From: Candidatus Thorarchaeota archaeon | GTDB taxonomy: Archaea > Asgardarchaeota > Thorarchaeia > Thorarchaeales > Thorarchaeaceae | NCBI GenBank assembly: GCA_016933575.1 | Contig: JAFGAR010000151.1 | Location: 124,001-188,000, forward strand | DNA: 64,000 nucleotides | Direction: 5' to 3' | Part shown: positions 52,882-61,480 of the stretch, in pieces | Layout: every line of letters starts with the position of its first letter | How positions within the stretch are numbered: position 1 is the stretch's first letter | Made by a program: the position numbers and the translations under genes | The notes under the pieces: model-generated | What the model was told of the DNA's origin: nothing | The model's database searches: none | What the model saw: the letters and a program-made list of their open reading frames with translations, nothing else

Positions 52882-53757
52882 ATGACTAACAACGAAGAAA
52901 CAAAAGCACTGGTCAGATATCTCTCTCTTGTTAGAAAAGAAGGTGGCGAACCCGTAATTGGTATCCCCTATCGTGAGATGTCTGTTGATCCAGATCTTGT
53001 GGCAAGTTTCGTTTTGGCAGTCATAATCTTCGAGAATCGTCAATTGAAGACATTCACGAAGGAAGGTTATGTTGTGGTAATTGAAGAGGGAGAACATGTT
53101 GTAGGCCTATTAATTATTGATCGAGTCGCTGATGATACTCCATATCGAAATTCTTTGATATCAATAATTAAGAAATTCGAGGAAACTTATGAGAATCAAC
53201 TACTCAGCTGGAAAGGAGACATACGCCCTTTCCGTGAATATGCTTTAGACATCCTGCAAGTATTTCCTTATCGAACATTTAGCTTAGAGATGATTCCAAA
53301 AATTGTGTCAAAGTCCGATGCTACACCAGACCTTCAGGCAAATATCCCCTGGAGTGTCGGTGAAACTGATAGGAAGATTCAGAATATTGTTGGATATATC
53401 AATGGAAAACGAACTATTGAAGAGATCATGAACCAATCCGATCTTGAGGATTCTGAGATACTAGCTATATTATCAATGCTTGATAAATACAAATGGATTT
53501 CACTCACTAGGAAACTTGATGATAAATCAATATTGTTTAAATTGATGGAACCTCCAAGACTTCTTGTTGGAGCGTATGGGGAACAACTGACAAGTATAGT
53601 AGAACTGTGTGATGGGACAAAAAGTCTAGCAGAAATATGCGAATCTCTCCCCTATAATATGGAAGCTGTAAAGTTGGTGGCAAAGAATCTGATAGACGCA
53701 GGGGTTCTTGGTTATCGGGAAATAGATTCTGAATCTGATGAAGGCGAGGTGGGCTAG
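52882..53757 (+). CDS. longin-like N-domain protein with two PqqD/wHTH-like domains (copy 1)
   Basis: 291 residues. The first 130 (VRYLSLVRKEGGEPVIGIPY, DPDLVASFVLAVIIF, GYVVVIEEGEHVVGLLIIDR, then a long helix and WKGDIRPFREYAL) follow the strand-strand-helix order of the longin-like proteins common in Asgard archaea, which bind small GTPases. Two repeats follow: VGYINGKRTIEEIM and VELCDGTKSLAEIC, each resembling a PqqD/wHTH unit. A paralogue starts 2 bases beyond its stop. The longin call is from pattern and family memory. Confidence 0.65.
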   Translation: MTNNEETKALVRYLSLVRKEGGEPVIGIPYREMSVDPDLVASFVLAVIIFENRQLKTFTKEGYVVVIEEGEHVVGLLIIDRVADDTPYRNSLISIIKKFEETYENQLLSWKGDIRPFREYALDILQVFPYRTFSLEMIPKIVSKSDATPDLQANIPWSVGETDRKIQNIVGYINGKRTIEEIMNQSDLEDSEILAILSMLDKYKWISLTRKLDDKSILFKLMEPPRLLVGAYGEQLTSIVELCDGTKSLAEICESLPYNMEAVKLVAKNLIDAGVLGYREIDSESDEGEVG

Positions 53758-53759
53758 TA

Positions 53760-54587
53760 ATGACACTTGATTTCTCAAAGGTCCGTTACATCTCACTGAT
53801 TCGAATGGAAGGTGGTGAGTCTGTTCTCAATATACCCTATGCAGAACTCACTGTGGACCCAGATCTTATCGCAGGTTTCGTGACAGCTGTAATTATCTTT
53901 GCTAAAACACCGATACGGACCATTCGCAAGGCTGCTTATGATATTCTCATTGAGGTTGGTAGAAGTGTTCTGGTACTTCTCGTTGTTGACCCGGTTCCTG
54001 ATGAAACTCCCTATAGAGAGAAGCTACAGAGGATTTTAGATGAAGTCGAATCACAACATGGAGAGAAACTTAGGCATTTTGAGGGCGATGTGAGACGATT
54101 TCGAGAATTCGCACTTACAGTTGTACGAGAATTTCCGTTTCAATCTGCTGACCTTAATATGGTTCCCGTCAAAAGAATGGATGGTATTCGTATTCCATTT
54201 CGGGTCGGTGCAGTGGATCGTGAGTTAGAACAAGTTGAGTCCTTCATTAATGGAAAACGAACAATTGCTGAGATTATGGATTTAATGGGTCTTTCTGATG
54301 ATGATGTATTGGCACTTATTTCAATATTAGCAAGGTATCGTTGGATTGAATTCAAACGTCGTCTGACGGAGAATGACATTTTGCGACGTATTGGTTGCCA
54401 GAATATCATTCTTGATCGTCTCAGGTCACAATATGGCAAAGCCTTAGAAGACCTGATGGCCAAATTTGATGGAAATGCAAAAATCGTTGATGTAACACAC
54501 TCATTGCCTTATGATAAGGATGCACTATGGTTTCTAATCAACAAACTTGTTGAAGTAGGATGTCTCTCAGTTGTTCATCCGACTTAG
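53760..54587 (+). CDS. longin-like N-domain protein with PqqD/wHTH-like domains (copy 2)
   Basis: 275 residues, homologous throughout to the preceding gene: VRYISLIRMEGGESVLNIPY, DPDLIAGFVTAVIIFA, FEGDVRRFREFAL in the N-domain, then VESFINGKRTIAEIMDLMG and AKFDGNAKIVDVTHSLPY in the repeats. Two-base spacing to copy 1 means tight coupling, so the products may form a heterodimer, as longin and roadblock platforms often do. Its last 4 bases overlap the convergent NifB-like gene. Confidence 0.65.
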   Translation: MTLDFSKVRYISLIRMEGGESVLNIPYAELTVDPDLIAGFVTAVIIFAKTPIRTIRKAAYDILIEVGRSVLVLLVVDPVPDETPYREKLQRILDEVESQHGEKLRHFEGDVRRFREFALTVVREFPFQSADLNMVPVKRMDGIRIPFRVGAVDRELEQVESFINGKRTIAEIMDLMGLSDDDVLALISILARYRWIEFKRRLTENDILRRIGCQNIILDRLRSQYGKALEDLMAKFDGNAKIVDVTHSLPYDKDALWFLINKLVEVGCLSVVHPT

Positions 54588-55414
54588 AGAATCCGATCAT
54601 TTCCTGGAATACCAACGACATCACTCCTGCATTGTTTGCAATGTGTGAATTGTTGGACATATTTAGCGGCAGTCTGACGAGCCAGCATTATTTCTTCTGT
54701 AGAAGGTGGTTTCAGATGTTTTGCATTACTAAAGGGCACGAGGGGAACTATGTTTTGTAGTTGTACTCCCTCCCCAGCAATTCTTCTAGCAAGCAATATT
54801 ATATCCTGATTATTTATCTCTGGGATGAGGATGCTATTCACTTTCACTGTTATGGATGAATCAATTGCGGCCCGTATCCCTTGTAGCTGCCTCTCAACTA
54901 TCTCTCTACCCATGGATAGACCTTTTTGAATTACGTTATCGATTCTTGCCCATTCATATAATTTCATTGCTATATTGGGACTGATTGCACTCATAGTCAC
55001 AGAGATGGTTGAAATTCCAAGCTCCACAAGTGCTTCTATTGATTCACTCAACAACACGCCATTAGTACTTAGACAGAACCTGAAGTCATATCCAAGTTCA
55101 ACTATCCCTTGCAGAGTTTCAAAGGTTTCTCTATTAGCCAAGGGTTCTCCTGGTCCTGATATGGCAGCGATTTTCAAACAAGGATTTTTCTCCTTCTCTA
55201 AACGAATTCTTCTAATCGCTTGAGATGGTTCCATTACATACGAGGAATATCCTGGTTTTGATGTATGACATGACGAACCATGACGGTGATCACAGAAGAT
55301 GCACTTGACATTGCAATCCCTAGCGACTGGGAGGTGTATCCGAGACCATAGATTATCTCGTGTCATCGAAAAACAGGGATGATGTGTAAATGGATATTGC
55401 TCTTGCGCTGTCAT
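54584..55414 (-). CDS. NifB-family radical SAM protein
   Basis: 276 residues of the SAM-only NifB type, which fuses two [4Fe-4S] clusters and inserts carbide to build NifB-co. The radical SAM motif is C34-C38-C41. Other NifB hallmarks are THHPCFS (His11, Cys14), Cys49 in SCHTSKPG, ISGPGEPLANRETF, FCLSTNG (Cys114) and the C-terminal HCKQCRSDVVG (Cys259, Cys262). All positions expected to hold substrate clusters are filled. The spacing C41-C49 is two residues longer than I recall for NifB. No other nif gene is present. It follows the roadblock gene after 6 bases. Confidence 0.82.
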   Translation of the reverse strand: MTAQEQYPFTHHPCFSMTRDNLWSRIHLPVARDCNVKCIFCDHRHGSSCHTSKPGYSSYVMEPSQAIRRIRLEKEKNPCLKIAAISGPGEPLANRETFETLQGIVELGYDFRFCLSTNGVLLSESIEALVELGISTISVTMSAISPNIAMKLYEWARIDNVIQKGLSMGREIVERQLQGIRAAIDSSITVKVNSILIPEINNQDIILLARRIAGEGVQLQNIVPLVPFSNAKHLKPPSTEEIMLARQTAAKYVQQFTHCKQCRSDVVGIPGNDRIL

Positions 55415-55420
55415 CGTAGA

Positions 55421-55813
55421 TCAAACATTCTGATGCAGTATCTTCCTGGCATCTCTTGCTGTACGTTTTGCGTCTGAGAAAATCAGTCCCAATGCAGCGT
55501 TTTCAGGAGCGGTTACTGTCAATATGTAATCTGGTGATATTGAAATAACAAGGGTTGTTCCAAAATCCCCCTGAATTATGATTGATTTCAGATCTCCCTG
55601 TCTTAGCTCCTTTACAGTTTGTTCTCCTGCTGCATGTATTCCTGCCACCATAGCAGCAACTGTGACCTCCTCAGTCCCTGCATGGAAGTGACTGACAAGA
55701 GGAAGTCCTTCTACTGAGAAGATGGCGGCGCCTAAGATTGGCGATTTATTTGATAGCTCTTTGAGCACTGCTCCCAGACTATCTCGAATTTTCATTGCAT
55801 TTGGATCTGCCAA
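55421..55813 (-). CDS. roadblock/LC7 domain protein
   Basis: 130 residues, one roadblock/LC7 (MglB-like) domain: long helix DSLGAVLKELS, strand LGAAIFSVEGLPLVSHF, helix VAAMVAGIHAAGEQTVKEL, strands SIIIQGDFGTTLVISISPDY and LTVTAPENAALGLIF, final helix. These proteins regulate small Ras-like GTPases; Asgard archaea have many. No GTPase gene is in the window. TTG start with GAGG 8 bases upstream. Coupled to the NifB-like gene, which is unexpected for this family. Confidence 0.82.
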   Translation of the reverse strand: MADPNAMKIRDSLGAVLKELSNKSPILGAAIFSVEGLPLVSHFHAGTEEVTVAAMVAGIHAAGEQTVKELRQGDLKSIIIQGDFGTTLVISISPDYILTVTAPENAALGLIFSDAKRTARDARKILHQNV

Positions 55814-55911: not shown

Positions 55912-56946
55912 TTAACCAATCAAACGGACTGAAGTCACAGTATCACTGTGTAGGGTCGAGGTTGGCAGTTTCATTACCTTGAGAACATTCTCTGCTTTGT
56001 CACCCAAATCAGCTTCTTTCAACATGTCGACAAACTCAAAACCTGTCGTTATAATCAGTCCTTTTACAGGTCGCCCATTTCTCATTGATTCAAGCAATTC
56101 ATCAACTGTGTATAACCTGCATTTGAGGTCAAGGTCTTTCTGTTTTTCCAAATGGCTGATTCCTTTCTTAGCAATCCCTCTATTCTCGCGTTGTTCACTA
56201 GTATACGCTCTTCTTCTATACATTGACTTTAGTCTTGTGAGTCCCCTCTCAATAAGCTCTTGTGCATTAAGATTCCTTCCATATATTGATTCAACGCTTT
56301 TCATAGTGGTAGTCACTAGCCAAGCTGTTCCATATGCAGATTGATAACGCATTGCTTTGAGAAGTTCTGATTCACTTAATAGAGTGAGTGACCGATATCC
56401 TTTGTACTCTATTGAAATTGTCCAATCCGGAGATTCATGATGGACCATGAGATCTGGAGTGAGTCCTTCTCCAGTCGAAGGGACAGACGTTGTCACATCT
56501 GGGAAGAGATGCATAATCAGTGCAAGGAATGCTTCGTGAAACATATTATGTCTGAGATTTCTTGCTTCCTGAGGATGCCTCATTCCAGCATCTCTGTAGA
56601 GCACAGGCATCTCGACTTTTTGTCCTGTTTTGCTTCTAACATCTGATTTGGTTGTAAGGCGGCCTCTGGAATGATTCAGCTTGACTAATCTTATTGCTGC
56701 TTCATAACCCATGAGATCGAACGCAACAGCTCCGATGTTCGTTTTCTTTGTACCTGAATCCTCGGAGGCTCTGCGTTTTGCTTCGTCTTGAGCCCAATCC
56801 GCAACATCTTGAGCATCATCGCCAAGAAGATTAAAGATTGATCGAAGTTTTTCGTTCAGGTTGTATCTCTTCACATGATTCCTTATTTCAATATTTAATT
56901 TCACTTGCTTTGCCAATACTTCTCTCTCACGTATTATTGTGGACAA
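55912..56946 (-). CDS. PD-(D/E)XK-like nuclease of the topoisomerase VI operon
   Basis: 344 residues from TTG, directly after the TAA of the coiled-coil gene, with AGAGGG as ribosome site. The core TPDLMVHHESPDWTISIEYKGYRSL (about residues 165-190) fits PD-x(n)-E-x-K, the metal site of restriction-enzyme-like nucleases. Flanking helices and a basic stretch (MYRRRAYTSEQRENRGIAKKG) suit DNA binding. It is the last gene of the topoisomerase VI B-A-coiled-coil-nuclease operon, so a role in break processing or recombination is plausible. Activity is inferred. Confidence 0.68.
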   Translation of the reverse strand: MSTIIREREVLAKQVKLNIEIRNHVKRYNLNEKLRSIFNLLGDDAQDVADWAQDEAKRRASEDSGTKKTNIGAVAFDLMGYEAAIRLVKLNHSRGRLTTKSDVRSKTGQKVEMPVLYRDAGMRHPQEARNLRHNMFHEAFLALIMHLFPDVTTSVPSTGEGLTPDLMVHHESPDWTISIEYKGYRSLTLLSESELLKAMRYQSAYGTAWLVTTTMKSVESIYGRNLNAQELIERGLTRLKSMYRRRAYTSEQRENRGIAKKGISHLEKQKDLDLKCRLYTVDELLESMRNGRPVKGLIITTGFEFVDMLKEADLGDKAENVLKVMKLPTSTLHSDTVTSVRLIG

Positions 56947-57624
56947 TTACCCTCTTCTAAGTATGTCCTTTGTAAGTGTTACTTCATCACTATCCTCGTC
57001 CACTTTTACGAGTTCTGCATTTGCAAGGTCGTATACTGCCTTCCTTACAACTGCTGGCATGATTCCACTACCTGAAGCAATATTCTTACGAGTTATGGCT
57101 GTCTTGACATCGTGCAGAGTATAGAGGATTCTTGCATGAGGTTTGCCGTAGAAGACTGTTTCAATCAAAGTAATATAGATTGCAAGCAAATCGCTTAGGT
57201 CTACCTTCTCCTGCAATGCTTCTTTTTCAGCGGATGCTTCTCTATAGAGTTCAGATACTCTCTGTAGCTGTTCATTAATCTCATCTAGCTCTCGTTTGAA
57301 ATCATCACGTTCCTTTCGAATAGCATCAATCTCTTCACTCTTTGAAGCACTAGCATCTTCGAGTTGCTTCTTTAGGGTCTTATTCTCATTAGATAATGTA
57401 TCTAACTTACTCTCTGCTTTTTCCTTGTCACTTGCTACCTTCTCAAGTTCGCTTTCAAGTCTCTTTAGTTTCTCTTCAGCGGCCCATGCCTTTTCTTCAG
57501 ATTCTCGTTTTCCTGCTCTGAGTTCCTCACCTTCACTCTGGAATTTATCACTTTCATCAAGTAGAGTTACAATGGTGCTCTTGAACTCGTCAAGTAATTC
57601 TAACAGTTTCTCCCTATCGGTCAT
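56947..57624 (-). CDS. coiled-coil protein with C-terminal winged helix in the topoisomerase VI operon
   Basis: 225 residues from ATG 57624 with GAGGAG 10 bases upstream. Residues 1-135 are a long charged coiled coil (EEKLKRLESELEKVASDKEK, KKQLEDASASKSEEIDAI). The last 80 residues form a wHTH (ITLIETVFYGKPHARILYTL, ITRKNIASGSGIMPAVVRKA, DLANAELVKV). It could dimerise and bind DNA, linking topoisomerase VI to the nuclease that follows with no intergenic base. Confidence 0.75.
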   Translation of the reverse strand: MTDREKLLELLDEFKSTIVTLLDESDKFQSEGEELRAGKRESEEKAWAAEEKLKRLESELEKVASDKEKAESKLDTLSNENKTLKKQLEDASASKSEEIDAIRKERDDFKRELDEINEQLQRVSELYREASAEKEALQEKVDLSDLLAIYITLIETVFYGKPHARILYTLHDVKTAITRKNIASGSGIMPAVVRKAVYDLANAELVKVDEDSDEVTLTKDILRRG

Positions 57625-57663
57625 GATAGTGACACTCCTCACTTTTTGTCAGCACTCCGAGCT

Positions 57664-58809
57664 TTATATCAGTTTCACATCGAAGGACGAAGTCTTCTCT
57701 TTGAGGTATTTGATGTAGAGTTCCTTCAGATCTGCCAGTGGGAATCCAAAAGCTTTGAATGCTTCAAGCTCTCCCTTTCGTTTTTTCTTGAGCATGATAT
57801 CATTCTCTCTATTGAGCACTGAATCTTGGCTGATTGCAGGTATGTTCTTGTTTTGCTGGGCACATTTCAAATCAGCTTTTGTCATAGATTCTAAGGAGTG
57901 CTCGATATCTCTTAACATTCCTTTTCTACCCCAGAAATCATCTGTGGTCAATCCAAGAAGTTGAGCCTCTGGGGTTGCTAGTCCTTGGATGTTGGCTAAT
58001 TCAATTGAATTGCTCTTTATTGTTGAGAAGATACGGAGCGACCATGGTGACATGTCAACTAACACGAATATTGGCACTTCTCGATCTGCCAGACGCCTAA
58101 TCCATGCTCTCATGTTTCTACCTGGTTGGCCAAATAATGAACCAACTCCTATCTTGAGACCCTCTGCAAGTCCCAATTCGATGAGATTCCTTGACATTGC
58201 TTCTTTTTCAACAAAAACAGCAGCATCAATATTGATGTCATGAATCTTCACATCAAATGGTCTGCTTGAGATAAACCAGCCATATTCACCTGCTGATGCA
58301 CAATTGAGTCTTTTTCCAGACATGTCTGAGAGTGTCACATCACCATAGAAGGTGCCTTTTGGAGAACTCACGACACCAAATTCCTCACGTGGTACAGATG
58401 ACCCACCTAGTCGGATGATCCGTTCACATAAGTTGATGAGGCGATTGGTTTCTGTCTGGTCTGTTATCTTCAAGACATCCTGCACATGTTTTACTTTGTG
58501 CATGTAATAGAAGTCTCTCAGGCTCATTGACATATTTTGTTCGAGATGTTCCTTGAATCTGGAGAGTCCATAGATAAGGCCTGCAATCGTCTTTGCACTC
58601 TCGACTTTTCTTCCATCAATGAATGATGGCGATTCATCGATGTGCACGTATCCCTTCTCCTCCAAAAAATCCACATTCTTCTTTGACGATCCGTAATAAC
58701 CAATCTCTGGAAATACTCCATCATTGATAGTGTCTACTAGAGTTACGAGGACTCCATCAATAAATTCCAAGACATCAGCAGTTGACATCTCTGATATCGA
58801 CCGATTCAT
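57664..58809 (-). CDS. top6A: DNA topoisomerase VI subunit A (Spo11-like)
   Basis: 381 residues, the DNA-cleaving subunit. The winged-helix catalytic site is SLRDFYYMHK with the DNA-linking Tyr102. The Toprim domain has the metal Glu201 (VFVEKEAM) and then VDMSPWSLRIFS, where the usual DxD is D252-M253-S254: the second Asp is a Ser. The end SIELANIQGLATPEAQLLGLT is family-typical. Overlaps the B gene as ATGA, so A and B are co-translated. Two genes follow in the operon. Confidence 0.9.
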   Translation of the reverse strand: MNRSISEMSTADVLEFIDGVLVTLVDTINDGVFPEIGYYGSSKKNVDFLEEKGYVHIDESPSFIDGRKVESAKTIAGLIYGLSRFKEHLEQNMSMSLRDFYYMHKVKHVQDVLKITDQTETNRLINLCERIIRLGGSSVPREEFGVVSSPKGTFYGDVTLSDMSGKRLNCASAGEYGWFISSRPFDVKIHDINIDAAVFVEKEAMSRNLIELGLAEGLKIGVGSLFGQPGRNMRAWIRRLADREVPIFVLVDMSPWSLRIFSTIKSNSIELANIQGLATPEAQLLGLTTDDFWGRKGMLRDIEHSLESMTKADLKCAQQNKNIPAISQDSVLNRENDIMLKKKRKGELEAFKAFGFPLADLKELYIKYLKEKTSSFDVKLI

Positions 58810-60344
58810 TCCTCATTCCCTCCTTCTATTCCAAGAAGTCTATTCAGAGATACTTCTTTCCCTGTTGCATTACTGAGTGTATGTGTCATGAATTGGTAGT
58901 AAGTAACCAGTTTGGACTCACGTCGATGTTCTCTCTGAACTCTGTTACGTTTTCGAAGTTTATCATTGAGTTCTCTCAGACAATCCTTGAATCCAAGATC
59001 TATCTCTCTCCGTACGACATCAACATCAGCAATGTACTCTTTTCCTATTGTTTTGTAAGGAATTTTCGTCGAGCAGATATGGATTGTAAATGTCAATGGA
59101 TCCTCCAACCTAAGTCCATAATTCTTTAGATTGAGGTCTCTCACCACTCTATATGCTACATCAGATCTTTCATCATATAAGAGTGGAATCCGGTTTGCAA
59201 ATCGAATGATATTCATGCCAGGGCTTAGTTGACCCCCGTAAGCCACACCAGTCTCAATGATAAATGGATGTCCTTCATAGACGTTTGCTTGTCTCTGTCT
59301 AAATACAACGAACTCTGGTGCTAGTCTCTCAATCCCTGCCATAAGCACATCAGTTCCTACTGGTGAGAGTGATTTTGATGATGGCGGGAGAAATCGGTCA
59401 AAACTCTCCATGCAATTCATCATTCGTACTAATTCCTCTTGTGTCAGAGTTCTTGGATTGATATCTTGATCTAGTTGTGCATATTCCAGGAACTCATTAG
59501 CTTTCATCTCACCAACCCGTTGAAATGAACTCATGAGAAATGTTTTCAGAGTCTTCTTCTTTGTAACCGCAATCATTCGTTTAAGCATCTCAACATCAAT
59601 ACCACGAGGATGTGGCTTTGTCTTAGCGGGAGGTCTTGGTATCTTCTCAATCACTCGTTTGAATTTGAGTAATTCACCATCAGGAGTTTCAAAGAGTATT
59701 GAGGCATAGGGAACAATAATTGCAGTTTGCGTGAAATAATCAATGATTCTTCGCTTACTTCTAAGCCAGTCTCCTTGAAGCCAAAAAGAGACCATGGTTC
59801 CACTCTCATCTCTTGCCTTGAGTACTTTCTCTTCTTCGATAATGATTGGTTGATTCTTCTCAATGTCAAGCTGCATTTCCAATCGATAACCAAACTCACT
59901 ACCTTTCTGTCCCGTGACAATCTCGATTGGTCTCTGTGTAGTGACTTGTCCGTAGAGAAGCGCTAGACTTCCGCCAAGACCAAATGTACCTCTGCTCTGC
60001 CGATGCATGAATTTGGTACCAGTCAGCATTTTACCTAATAATCGTGGGATTGCCTCTCGCTTCATTCCAGTTCCATTATCTTTTACTATCAACTCGAAAA
60101 TCTCAGGTCCTTGACCTATGAGATCTATCACCGAGCTATCTTCTTCTCGTCTAAGAAGGGCCGTAATTTCAGGTAGGACTCTTGCATCTTCACAAGCATC
60201 AAGGCTATTCTCAACAATCTCTCTCACTGCAACATAGAGTGATCTTGCTGGATTGTCAAAACCCGCAATGGCCCGGTTCCGGTAGAACCAAGCTGATACA
60301 GAGAGTTCAACGATATCTTGACTGGTACTTTTCGGTGTAAGCAA
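58806..60344 (-). CDS. top6B: DNA topoisomerase VI subunit B
   Basis: 512-residue ATPase subunit of the A2B2 type IIB topoisomerase. GHKL motifs: VREIVENSLDACEDA (N-box, near residue 39), KDNGTGMKREAI (G1, near 91) and RGTFGLGGSLALLYG (G2, near 118). Then an H2TH-like region (ERVGEMKANEFLEYAQLDQD) and the transducer with PFIIETGVAYGG and FANRIPLLYDE. Length is about right for archaeal Top6B. First gene of the operon; its stop overlaps the A start by 4 bases. Confidence 0.93.
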   Translation of the reverse strand: MLTPKSTSQDIVELSVSAWFYRNRAIAGFDNPARSLYVAVREIVENSLDACEDARVLPEITALLRREEDSSVIDLIGQGPEIFELIVKDNGTGMKREAIPRLLGKMLTGTKFMHRQSRGTFGLGGSLALLYGQVTTQRPIEIVTGQKGSEFGYRLEMQLDIEKNQPIIIEEEKVLKARDESGTMVSFWLQGDWLRSKRRIIDYFTQTAIIVPYASILFETPDGELLKFKRVIEKIPRPPAKTKPHPRGIDVEMLKRMIAVTKKKTLKTFLMSSFQRVGEMKANEFLEYAQLDQDINPRTLTQEELVRMMNCMESFDRFLPPSSKSLSPVGTDVLMAGIERLAPEFVVFRQRQANVYEGHPFIIETGVAYGGQLSPGMNIIRFANRIPLLYDERSDVAYRVVRDLNLKNYGLRLEDPLTFTIHICSTKIPYKTIGKEYIADVDVVRREIDLGFKDCLRELNDKLRKRNRVQREHRRESKLVTYYQFMTHTLSNATGKEVSLNRLLGIEGGNEE

Positions 60345-60417: not shown

Positions 60418-61314
60418 TCAAAGGGTTGGTATCACAAGATAACCAACAAGAAGCATTGAAACAAGAGCAATTGTAAGAATAATCCATACTGGTTTACTCC
60501 AATCCTTCACCGTAGCTCCATCAAAAGGTTGGAAAGGAATCATATTGAATAGACCCAATACTGAATTGATAATGATTCCATATTTGATAAGGAGGAGTAC
60601 ATAGAGTCTGGTTAGATTAGCAAGGAATAATACACTGATTATCGCTCCAATGACCAATCCTGAGGCGATGATGAAATTGCTCAGCGGTCCAGCAAGATTC
60701 GCTTTTGCATTATGGTCTCTATTTGATGTACCACTTGTGTATACCGTTCCTGTTCCAAAAATGGGAATTGAAAATAGTATTGCAATGGCAGAGAGGTAGT
60801 ATCCCATTGTTGTCATCCTAAACTCTGACCACATTCCGTAATGTTGCGCTGTGAATTTGTGTGCCAGCTCATGCCCTATGAATGAGAGTATGAATATGGA
60901 GATCATACCTACAGGGAACCACCAATCTGGTCCTGTTATGAATGAATAGAATAGAATAAGAGCATTTACAATTCCAAATGGCGACCCAAGAATAGAGATA
61001 CCCACCAATGCCACTAAGATGACTGAAATTAGTAGGTCTCGTATTTCCATACGAGAGAATCGTGATCTTGATGAGGTTCGATGTTTCTTTTTCTTTTTTG
61101 GCATGATTGGAGACCATGTTCGATTTTCCTCAACATCATAGTCGTCATCCATCCCTAGTGAGCTAGATACTTTTCTCTTTGCATCTTCTCTCACTTTTTG
61201 AATACCTGGGCAACCATGACTCTCCGGTAGTCTATGTTCTCCACAGTACACACCATTGCAGTATGGGCAAGTGAAAGTAAGGTCTTCCTTCCCGCATAAA
61301 GAGCATGTTGCCAT
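60418..61314 (-). CDS. AN1-type zinc finger fused to site-2 protease-like membrane peptidase
   Basis: The N-terminal 40 residues are a perfect AN1 finger (C-x2-C-x8-C-x2-C-x4-C-x2-H-x5-H-x-C) as in eukaryotic stress-associated proteins. A basic linker (MPKKKKKHRTSSRSR) and about six membrane helices follow, with the M50 metalloprotease motif FIGHELAHKF near 150, GPLSNFI near 210 and NMIPFQPFDGATVKDWS near 265. It is an intramembrane protease with a cytosolic zinc finger that may recognise ubiquitin-like or other partners. ATG 61314 has GGGTG before it; 61326 is also possible. Confidence 0.85.
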   Translation of the reverse strand: MATCSLCGKEDLTFTCPYCNGVYCGEHRLPESHGCPGIQKVREDAKRKVSSSLGMDDDYDVEENRTWSPIMPKKKKKHRTSSRSRFSRMEIRDLLISVILVALVGISILGSPFGIVNALILFYSFITGPDWWFPVGMISIFILSFIGHELAHKFTAQHYGMWSEFRMTTMGYYLSAIAILFSIPIFGTGTVYTSGTSNRDHNAKANLAGPLSNFIIASGLVIGAIISVLFLANLTRLYVLLLIKYGIIINSVLGLFNMIPFQPFDGATVKDWSKPVWIILTIALVSMLLVGYLVIPTL

Positions 61315-61480
61315 TGAAACACCCATTAATTTGCTTTGTAATCGCAGTTTTTTGAAAATATATCCGTATTCCTAGCGGATTAATTTCACATTTTCTCATC
61401 ATGTGATAACTTTGACGCAAAGGCTTAAGTGATTGTTATTTCGAGCCCGATTTGGTTCCAGTGAATTGGAGAGATTTTCC

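Follow-up and report, generated by a model that had tools for sequence, protein, structure and literature searches.

The stretch of DNA analysed here (the window) is 64,000 nucleotides of contig JAFGAR010000151.1 from Candidatus Thorarchaeota archaeon, a Thorarchaeia-type Asgard (assembly GCA_016933575.1; assembly and contig are labelled G000 and C138 below). On its minus strand it carries the genes for both subunits of a topoisomerase VI (Topo VI), top6B and top6A, followed by a gene for a coiled-coil and winged-helix protein (CC) and a gene for a nuclease-like protein (NUC). These four genes are probably two adjacent modules that are inherited separately, neighbours and not parts of one machine, because each module can be lost without the other. 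It is reasonably probable, with real room for doubt, that the locus combines an extra, replaceable Topo VI, whose toprim domain has DxS for DxD, with a separate housekeeping CC-NUC nuclease pair that is confined to one family. This reading rests on gene content, predicted folds, conserved residues, distribution and the separability of the modules; from these we infer the enzymatic activities, the CC dimer, the contact between CC and NUC and a role in repair. The top6B-top6A lineage of the window locus is called W-type throughout.

The survey covered 195 Asgard genomes, 47 of which form a single Thorarchaeia family (f1) and 148 of which lie outside it. NUC was found in 40 genomes, all within the family (40 of 47), including every one of the 13 family genomes with completeness of 90% or more and contamination of 5% or less; it is absent from all 148 others, with no credible match even by profile. 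Homologues of CC occur in 155 of the 195 genomes (41 of 47 in the family, 114 of 148 outside). At 20 CC loci outside the family, read for up to 8 kb per side, none of the neighbouring proteins clustered with Top6A or Top6B, and the neighbours recur only in small sets of loci (L128/L129/L144, L136/L137/L142 and, partly, L134/L145). Since CC is found across the Asgard archaea and lies away from top6 at all of these loci, it is, as its distribution indicates, an old Asgard gene that became the neighbour of NUC in one family. The preliminary description had looked to conservation of gene order across Asgard genomes; the order is conserved within this family and not beyond it.

Linkage was compared in 44 loci from 43 genomes. 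CC precedes NUC in all 41 NUC-bearing loci, and the Roadblock gene lies beside NUC in each of the 40 loci that extend that far. Top6A stands directly before CC in 33 of the 41 and is absent from the remaining eight, which makes top6BA less stable than any other part of the block. In six of these (G012, G132, G081, G043, G069 and G084), the AN1/M50 gene abuts CC with no top6BA; in G090, the 789 bases upstream of CC contain neither top6A nor AN1/M50 by tblastn; and in G126 the contig ends upstream of CC. No W-type Top6A was found elsewhere in the eight genomes. The concatenated tree (41 rows) has several long branches and no fixed root and does not tell loss from gain; on it, the W state changes at least seven times, or at least five times with the contig-limited G090 and G126 left out. 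Losses are favoured over gains because the position of top6BA is identical across loci.

The CC-NUC pair persists where top6BA is missing. All 40 covered loci, those that lack top6BA among them, retain NUC residues E127, H137, P164, D165, E180, K182, K197 and R200; the forty-first is cut by a contig end. Relative to the flanks, the NUC distance is 0.93 and 0.89 in comparisons with one and two top6BA-less members, respectively, against 0.975, and the CC distance is 0.96 and 0.81 against 1.06; CC and NUC evolve no faster without top6BA. The reverse case was also encountered. Three loci have top6A and no NUC; two of them (L166 in G099 and L181 in G149) end at a contig edge, while the third (L167 in G155) does not. 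The 3.8 kb contig of G155 carries the end of the AN1/M50 gene, top6B, top6A and then a convergent phosphoesterase gene, and searches of the G155 genome recovered neither CC nor NUC.

The four-gene block is far from a chance arrangement, being conserved across the family. However, its unrelated flanks (AN1/M50, Roadblock, radical SAM, two winged helix-turn-helix (wHTH) genes and DUF2797) hold the same order; synteny within the family is therefore background and uninformative, and the argument that a conserved operon implies a complex was rejected. An origin of the block from a mobile element was also rejected: neither NUC nor W-type Top6A has kin in viral contigs or PHROGs, and NUC has none in plasmids. 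One assembly, G135, carries the block twice, on separate contigs (L034 and L180), with NUC 78% and 67% identical to that of the window, from either a strain mixture or a true duplication.

Pfam and NCBIfam matches bear out the earlier identification of both Topo VI subunits. The W-type Top6B has the GHKL ATPase, H2TH region and transducer of a B subunit, and aligns with S. shibatae 2zbk_B at 382 bits, including the ENSLDA, DNGTGM and STKIPYKTIGKE motifs; Top6A matches TP6A_N and TOP6A-Spo11_Toprim above the Pfam cut-off. With archaeal Topo VI (S. shibatae 2zbk, M. mazei 2q2e and M. jannaschii Top6A 1d3y) the W-type shares the domains of both subunits, the overlapping B-A gene pair, the catalytic Tyr, the toprim Glu and first Asp, and the GHKL and transducer motifs. 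It differs from them in having DxS and not DxD, and in a clade deeply apart from the other two Top6A lineages of Thorarchaeia. RDFYY, E201, D252 and S254 are invariant in the 15 W-type Top6A sequences aligned, and D252-x-S254 is present in all 35 distinct ones, whereas DxD is intact in 16 of 16 aligned Top6A rows of the C, F and other Asgard lineages.

Two other classes of enzyme were considered for the W-type and rejected. Topo VIII and Mini-A enzymes are fusions or products of a single gene, and most reside on mobile elements; the W-type B and A subunits have a gene each, at a constant position in the chromosome, and W-type Top6A has no relatives in viral contigs and only distant haloarchaeal matches in plasmids (25-27% identity). 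Spo11-type break-making complexes combine a Top6A partner lacking a full ATPase B subunit with dedicated break factors; the W-type has a full GHKL/transducer Top6B, and CC-NUC is separable from top6BA.

A complete toprim DxD, which is usual but not strictly defining for Topo VI, is lacking in W-type Top6A. Judged by sequence, DxS marks the W-type as a variant and is no bar to Topo VI membership, since the site varies in accepted relatives and is only mostly conserved. The available text of PMC11302465 describes a Top6A/Spo11 tree of 223 sequences with the key residues in every member, the sole exception being DxN in SPO11-2 (plants and some protists). The second toprim Asp is thus replaced in both SPO11-2 and the W-type, which does not imply kinship between them. 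No prior report of the W-type variant, its paralogues or the gene block was found in the open-access literature searched.

The DxS might impair or specialise the W-type enzyme, for example as a slow resealer or a regulatory DNA binder that is tolerated as other copies work. The second Asp is indeed replaced throughout the clade, and DNA binding by E. coli topo I falls drastically upon the equivalent mutation (PMC11302465, available text). In yeast Spo11, however, E233 and D288 are essential while D290 is dispensable, D290N being nearly neutral and D290A partial, according to the accessible parts of PMC11746154 and PMC11922746, and the former describes the second DxD position as mostly, not strictly, conserved. 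Furthermore, the W-type Top6A has the lowest mean p-distance (0.243) among nine block genes compared and is, by its divergence, under strong purifying selection despite DxS. In addition, W and C queries recovered no Top6A but the W-type in G005 (94% complete) or G067 (90% complete), and no type IIA topoisomerase was found in either. An impaired or specialised enzyme is unlikely, albeit with a modest chance of being right. Given the retained Tyr102, E201 and D252, the dispensable yeast residue, the low divergence and its position as sole type II enzyme found in two genomes, the most likely reading of the W-type is a working Topo VI whose metal B site is altered and which can replace the canonical copy.

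Thorarchaeia genomes contain three far-apart Top6A lineages (W, C and F), as seen in a rapidly built tree that gave warnings, has long branches and was used only to show this separation. The C lineage is the canonical Topo VI, which most of the family encodes at another locus; in G000 it lies on contig C7 with its own top6B. The F lineage also has its own top6B, and its Top6A bears an N-terminal helix-hairpin-helix array. Among the 47 family genomes, W is present in 35, C in 40 and F in 43. None lacks both W and C; because 1.8 co-absences are expected and the chance of none is 0.11, complementarity of the two is only suggestive. Type IIA topoisomerase (PF00521) was detected in one of the 47, which agrees with the apparent absence of gyrase in Thorarchaeota noted in the available text of PMC9348778. 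This sole match (G111, contig C269:7923-9038, 1.9e-120) is either contamination or a recent transfer.

Several further observations concern these lineages. C-type Top6A is absent and W-type present in G065, G087, G102 and G111 (one subclade), as well as in G129, G093 and G172; as the mirror image, genomes without W all keep C. In G132, a single-contig genome, the C-type top6B is broken into two open reading frames (ORFs) of 161 and 331 aa (L149:4786-6312), by either a frameshift or a sequencing error. F-type pairs were located at L152:3349-7600 (G049), L154:3277-8066 (G061) and L164:5936-10299 (G129); F-type Top6A is 747-950 aa, and F-type Top6B, at 645-681 aa, is longer than its counterparts. 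Of two F-type Top6A proteins scanned against Pfam, that of G061 has seven HHH_5 stretches and that of G049 has two. No published description of this architecture was found in the open-access literature searched.

The AlphaFold model of CC consists of a single helix at residues 2-144 (143 residues) and a winged helix at 150-223, as the preliminary coiled-coil/wHTH call would have it. Residues 148-231 match the winged helices of MarR, IclR and Z-alpha proteins (Z 9.6-11.0, the wHTH matches lying at Z 10-11) and that of HOP2 (2mh2, Z 9.8). The shared fold is generic, and CC adds a long N-terminal coiled coil. Kinship with HOP2, one of many generic winged-helix matches, was rejected; its domain order is presumably the reverse of that in CC. 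Coiled-coil kinships suggested by Pfam, PADLOC, NCBIfam and the PDB (myosin, SMC, tropomyosin, JetC and others) were set aside as low-complexity helix matches.

The model of NUC (predicted local distance difference test (pLDDT) 87.9, predicted template modelling score 0.74) has a helix at 125-147, strands at 152-154, 166-170 and 175-182, a helix at 192-205 and a strand at 208-212. This is the helix-three strands-helix-strand core of PD-(D/E)XK enzymes, the fold that the preliminary description had anticipated. The P164-D165/E180-x-K182 motif is invariant in the alignment of 34 sequences, as are E127, H137, K197, R200 and Y201. In VIA-align 2, the first match is AF1548 (1y88; Z 9.2, root-mean-square deviation 2.7, 111 aligned); ranks 2-10 lie at Z 6.6-7.4, and the list includes AspBHI, EcoT38I, MspJI, Can2, LmuA, Hjc, FokI, McrBC and others at Z 6-7.4. 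We take most of these neighbours to be PD-(D/E)XK nucleases. Foldseek returned no match at E <0.001. A Z below 8 is weak by itself, but the consistent set of neighbours, combined with the topology and the invariant motif, makes NUC a likely PD-(D/E)XK nuclease, at the level of prediction.

Compared with established enzymes of this class (AF1548 1y88, AspBHI 4oc8, EcoT38I 7edb, MspJI 4f0p, LmuA 9nxx and Hjc 1gef), NUC shares the core fold and PD...ExK motif; it differs in its helical N-terminal half and in having no sequence-level kin found outside the family. The window protein belongs to no Pfam, NCBIfam, PADLOC or PHROG family, and a PDB profile search gave nothing under E 0.68. Four profile matches outside the family (E 0.013-0.15) are short and were rejected as not credible. 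A scan of all species with peptides of one NUC sequence, which detects close relatives only, returned named contigs mostly labelled 'Candidatus Thorarchaeota'.

The company that NUC keeps in structural searches raises the alternative of a restriction-like defence unit, in which CC would recognise foreign DNA and NUC destroy it. AspBHI, MspJI, EcoT38I, LmuA and McrBC are restriction enzymes or defence nucleases, and five of 34 NUC members scanned singly against Pfam touch HSDR_N_2 weakly (best E 0.021), a restriction-enzyme family with a nuclease fold. This is rather improbable, however, for a pair that occupies a fixed chromosomal place, is near-universal in the family and vertically inherited, with distances that track those of the flanks, and of which one member, CC, is pan-Asgard. 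Furthermore, no methylase was found among ten block proteins scanned, and no NUC kin in viral contigs, plasmids, PADLOC or PHROGs.

The preliminary description went further and proposed a break-making or break-processing complex, or a DNA-topology checkpoint. This proposal is unsupported, with nothing pointing to it. In its fullest form, the W-type would break DNA, CC would position the breaks and NUC would process the ends or the Top6A-DNA adduct, genomes that lost top6BA keeping CC-NUC secondarily. The shared strand, the short gaps and the frequent adjacency of Top6A and CC fit such a complex, and the DxS toprim recalls the DxN of plant SPO11-2 (PMC11302465, available text). It is very unlikely, however, given the five or more changes in top6BA that leave CC-NUC intact and no faster evolving, the W-type without NUC in G155, G005 and G067, the distance of CC from top6 at the 20 loci read outside the family and the equal synteny of unrelated flanks. 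A dedicated break-maker would also be ill-suited as the sole type II topoisomerase found in G005 and G067. Less likely still is a break-prone, Spo11-like DxS Topo VI for which CC-NUC positions or processes breaks or covalent adducts wherever the block stays linked, although, if true, it would place programmed DNA breakage in the closest archaeal relatives of eukaryotes.

Several points weigh against two independent modules. With few exceptions the assemblies are fragmented, their completeness ranging over 52-99%, and the contig of G155 may reflect a misassembly. In G067, contamination reaches 12% and the W gene lies in pieces on two contigs. The modules may also be linked conditionally, given that Top6A and CC are adjacent at 33 of the 41 loci. 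The absence of a double loss of W and C is not significant and comes from genomes that are not independent. Finally, break making and resealing by the W-type, DNA cutting by NUC and the CC-NUC contact are deductions.

If the two-module reading holds, the first module would be a divergent Topo VI that relaxes and decatenates DNA as an A2B2 enzyme and is able to stand in for the canonical Topo VI. Such activity is expected because the catalytic Tyr102 is retained together with E201 and D252, the metal ligands of the catalytic site A, the change being limited to the Asp of site B, now Ser254. The second module would be a vertically inherited housekeeping pair with no need of the first, in which CC probably binds DNA as a parallel dimer and recruits NUC, a Mg-dependent PD-(D/E)XK nuclease for DNA repair or turnover. 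An active W-type would mean that a whole prokaryotic Topo VI lineage works without the second DxD Asp, an exception otherwise reported only in SPO11-2, and would bear on the number of metals in type IIB cleavage and on the evolution of topoisomerases into break-makers. A family without gyrase and with up to three Topo VI lineages is a natural test for division of labour. NUC would add a family-specific nuclease, and CC a pan-Asgard DNA-binding protein, both predicted and neither described in the libraries used.

The coordinates of the block and its immediate flanks are collected in Table 1.

Table 1. Genes of the four-gene block and its flanks (window positions).
Feature	Position	Strand	Details
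top6B (W-type), topoisomerase VI subunit B	58806..60344	-	512 aa; GHKL ATPase, H2TH region, transducer; TIGR01052 448 bits, NF003218 550 bits, Topo-VIb_trans 169 bits
top6A (W-type), topoisomerase VI subunit A	57664..58809	-	381 aa; winged helix with Y102, toprim with E201 and D252-x-S254; TOP6A-Spo11_Toprim 82 bits, TP6A_N 29 bits
CC, coiled coil and C-terminal winged helix	56947..57624	-	225 aa from ATG; 231 aa from GTG 57642
NUC, predicted PD-(D/E)XK nuclease-like protein	55912..56946	-	up to 344 aa; alternative TTG start 56913
AN1 zinc finger and M50-like membrane protease, upstream flank	60418..61326	-	Pfam zf-AN1 43.5 bits; Peptidase_M50 21 bits (under cut-off)
Roadblock/LC7 domain protein, downstream flank	55421..55813	-	Robl_LC7 54.5 bits; 98 bp after NUC
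Radical SAM protein, downstream flank	54584..55414	-	Radical_SAM 65 bits; close behind Roadblock gene

The layout of the four genes agrees with the preliminary description in strand, coordinates and the 4-base overlap of top6B and top6A, and the same-strand run extends past them, to the AN1/M50 gene upstream and the Roadblock and radical SAM genes downstream. The 39-base gap between top6A and CC holds if CC starts at ATG 57624, the start that agrees with its relatives; the mechanical ORF begins at GTG 57642. NUC was said to follow the CC stop at once, which is correct for its first possible start, TTG 56946. Because residues 1-12 are not conserved and have pLDDT <50, the true start may be TTG 56913. 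At 52882-54587, convergent with the radical SAM gene, lie the genes for two adjacent related proteins of 291 and 275 aa with weak winged-helix matches, which are conserved in the block.

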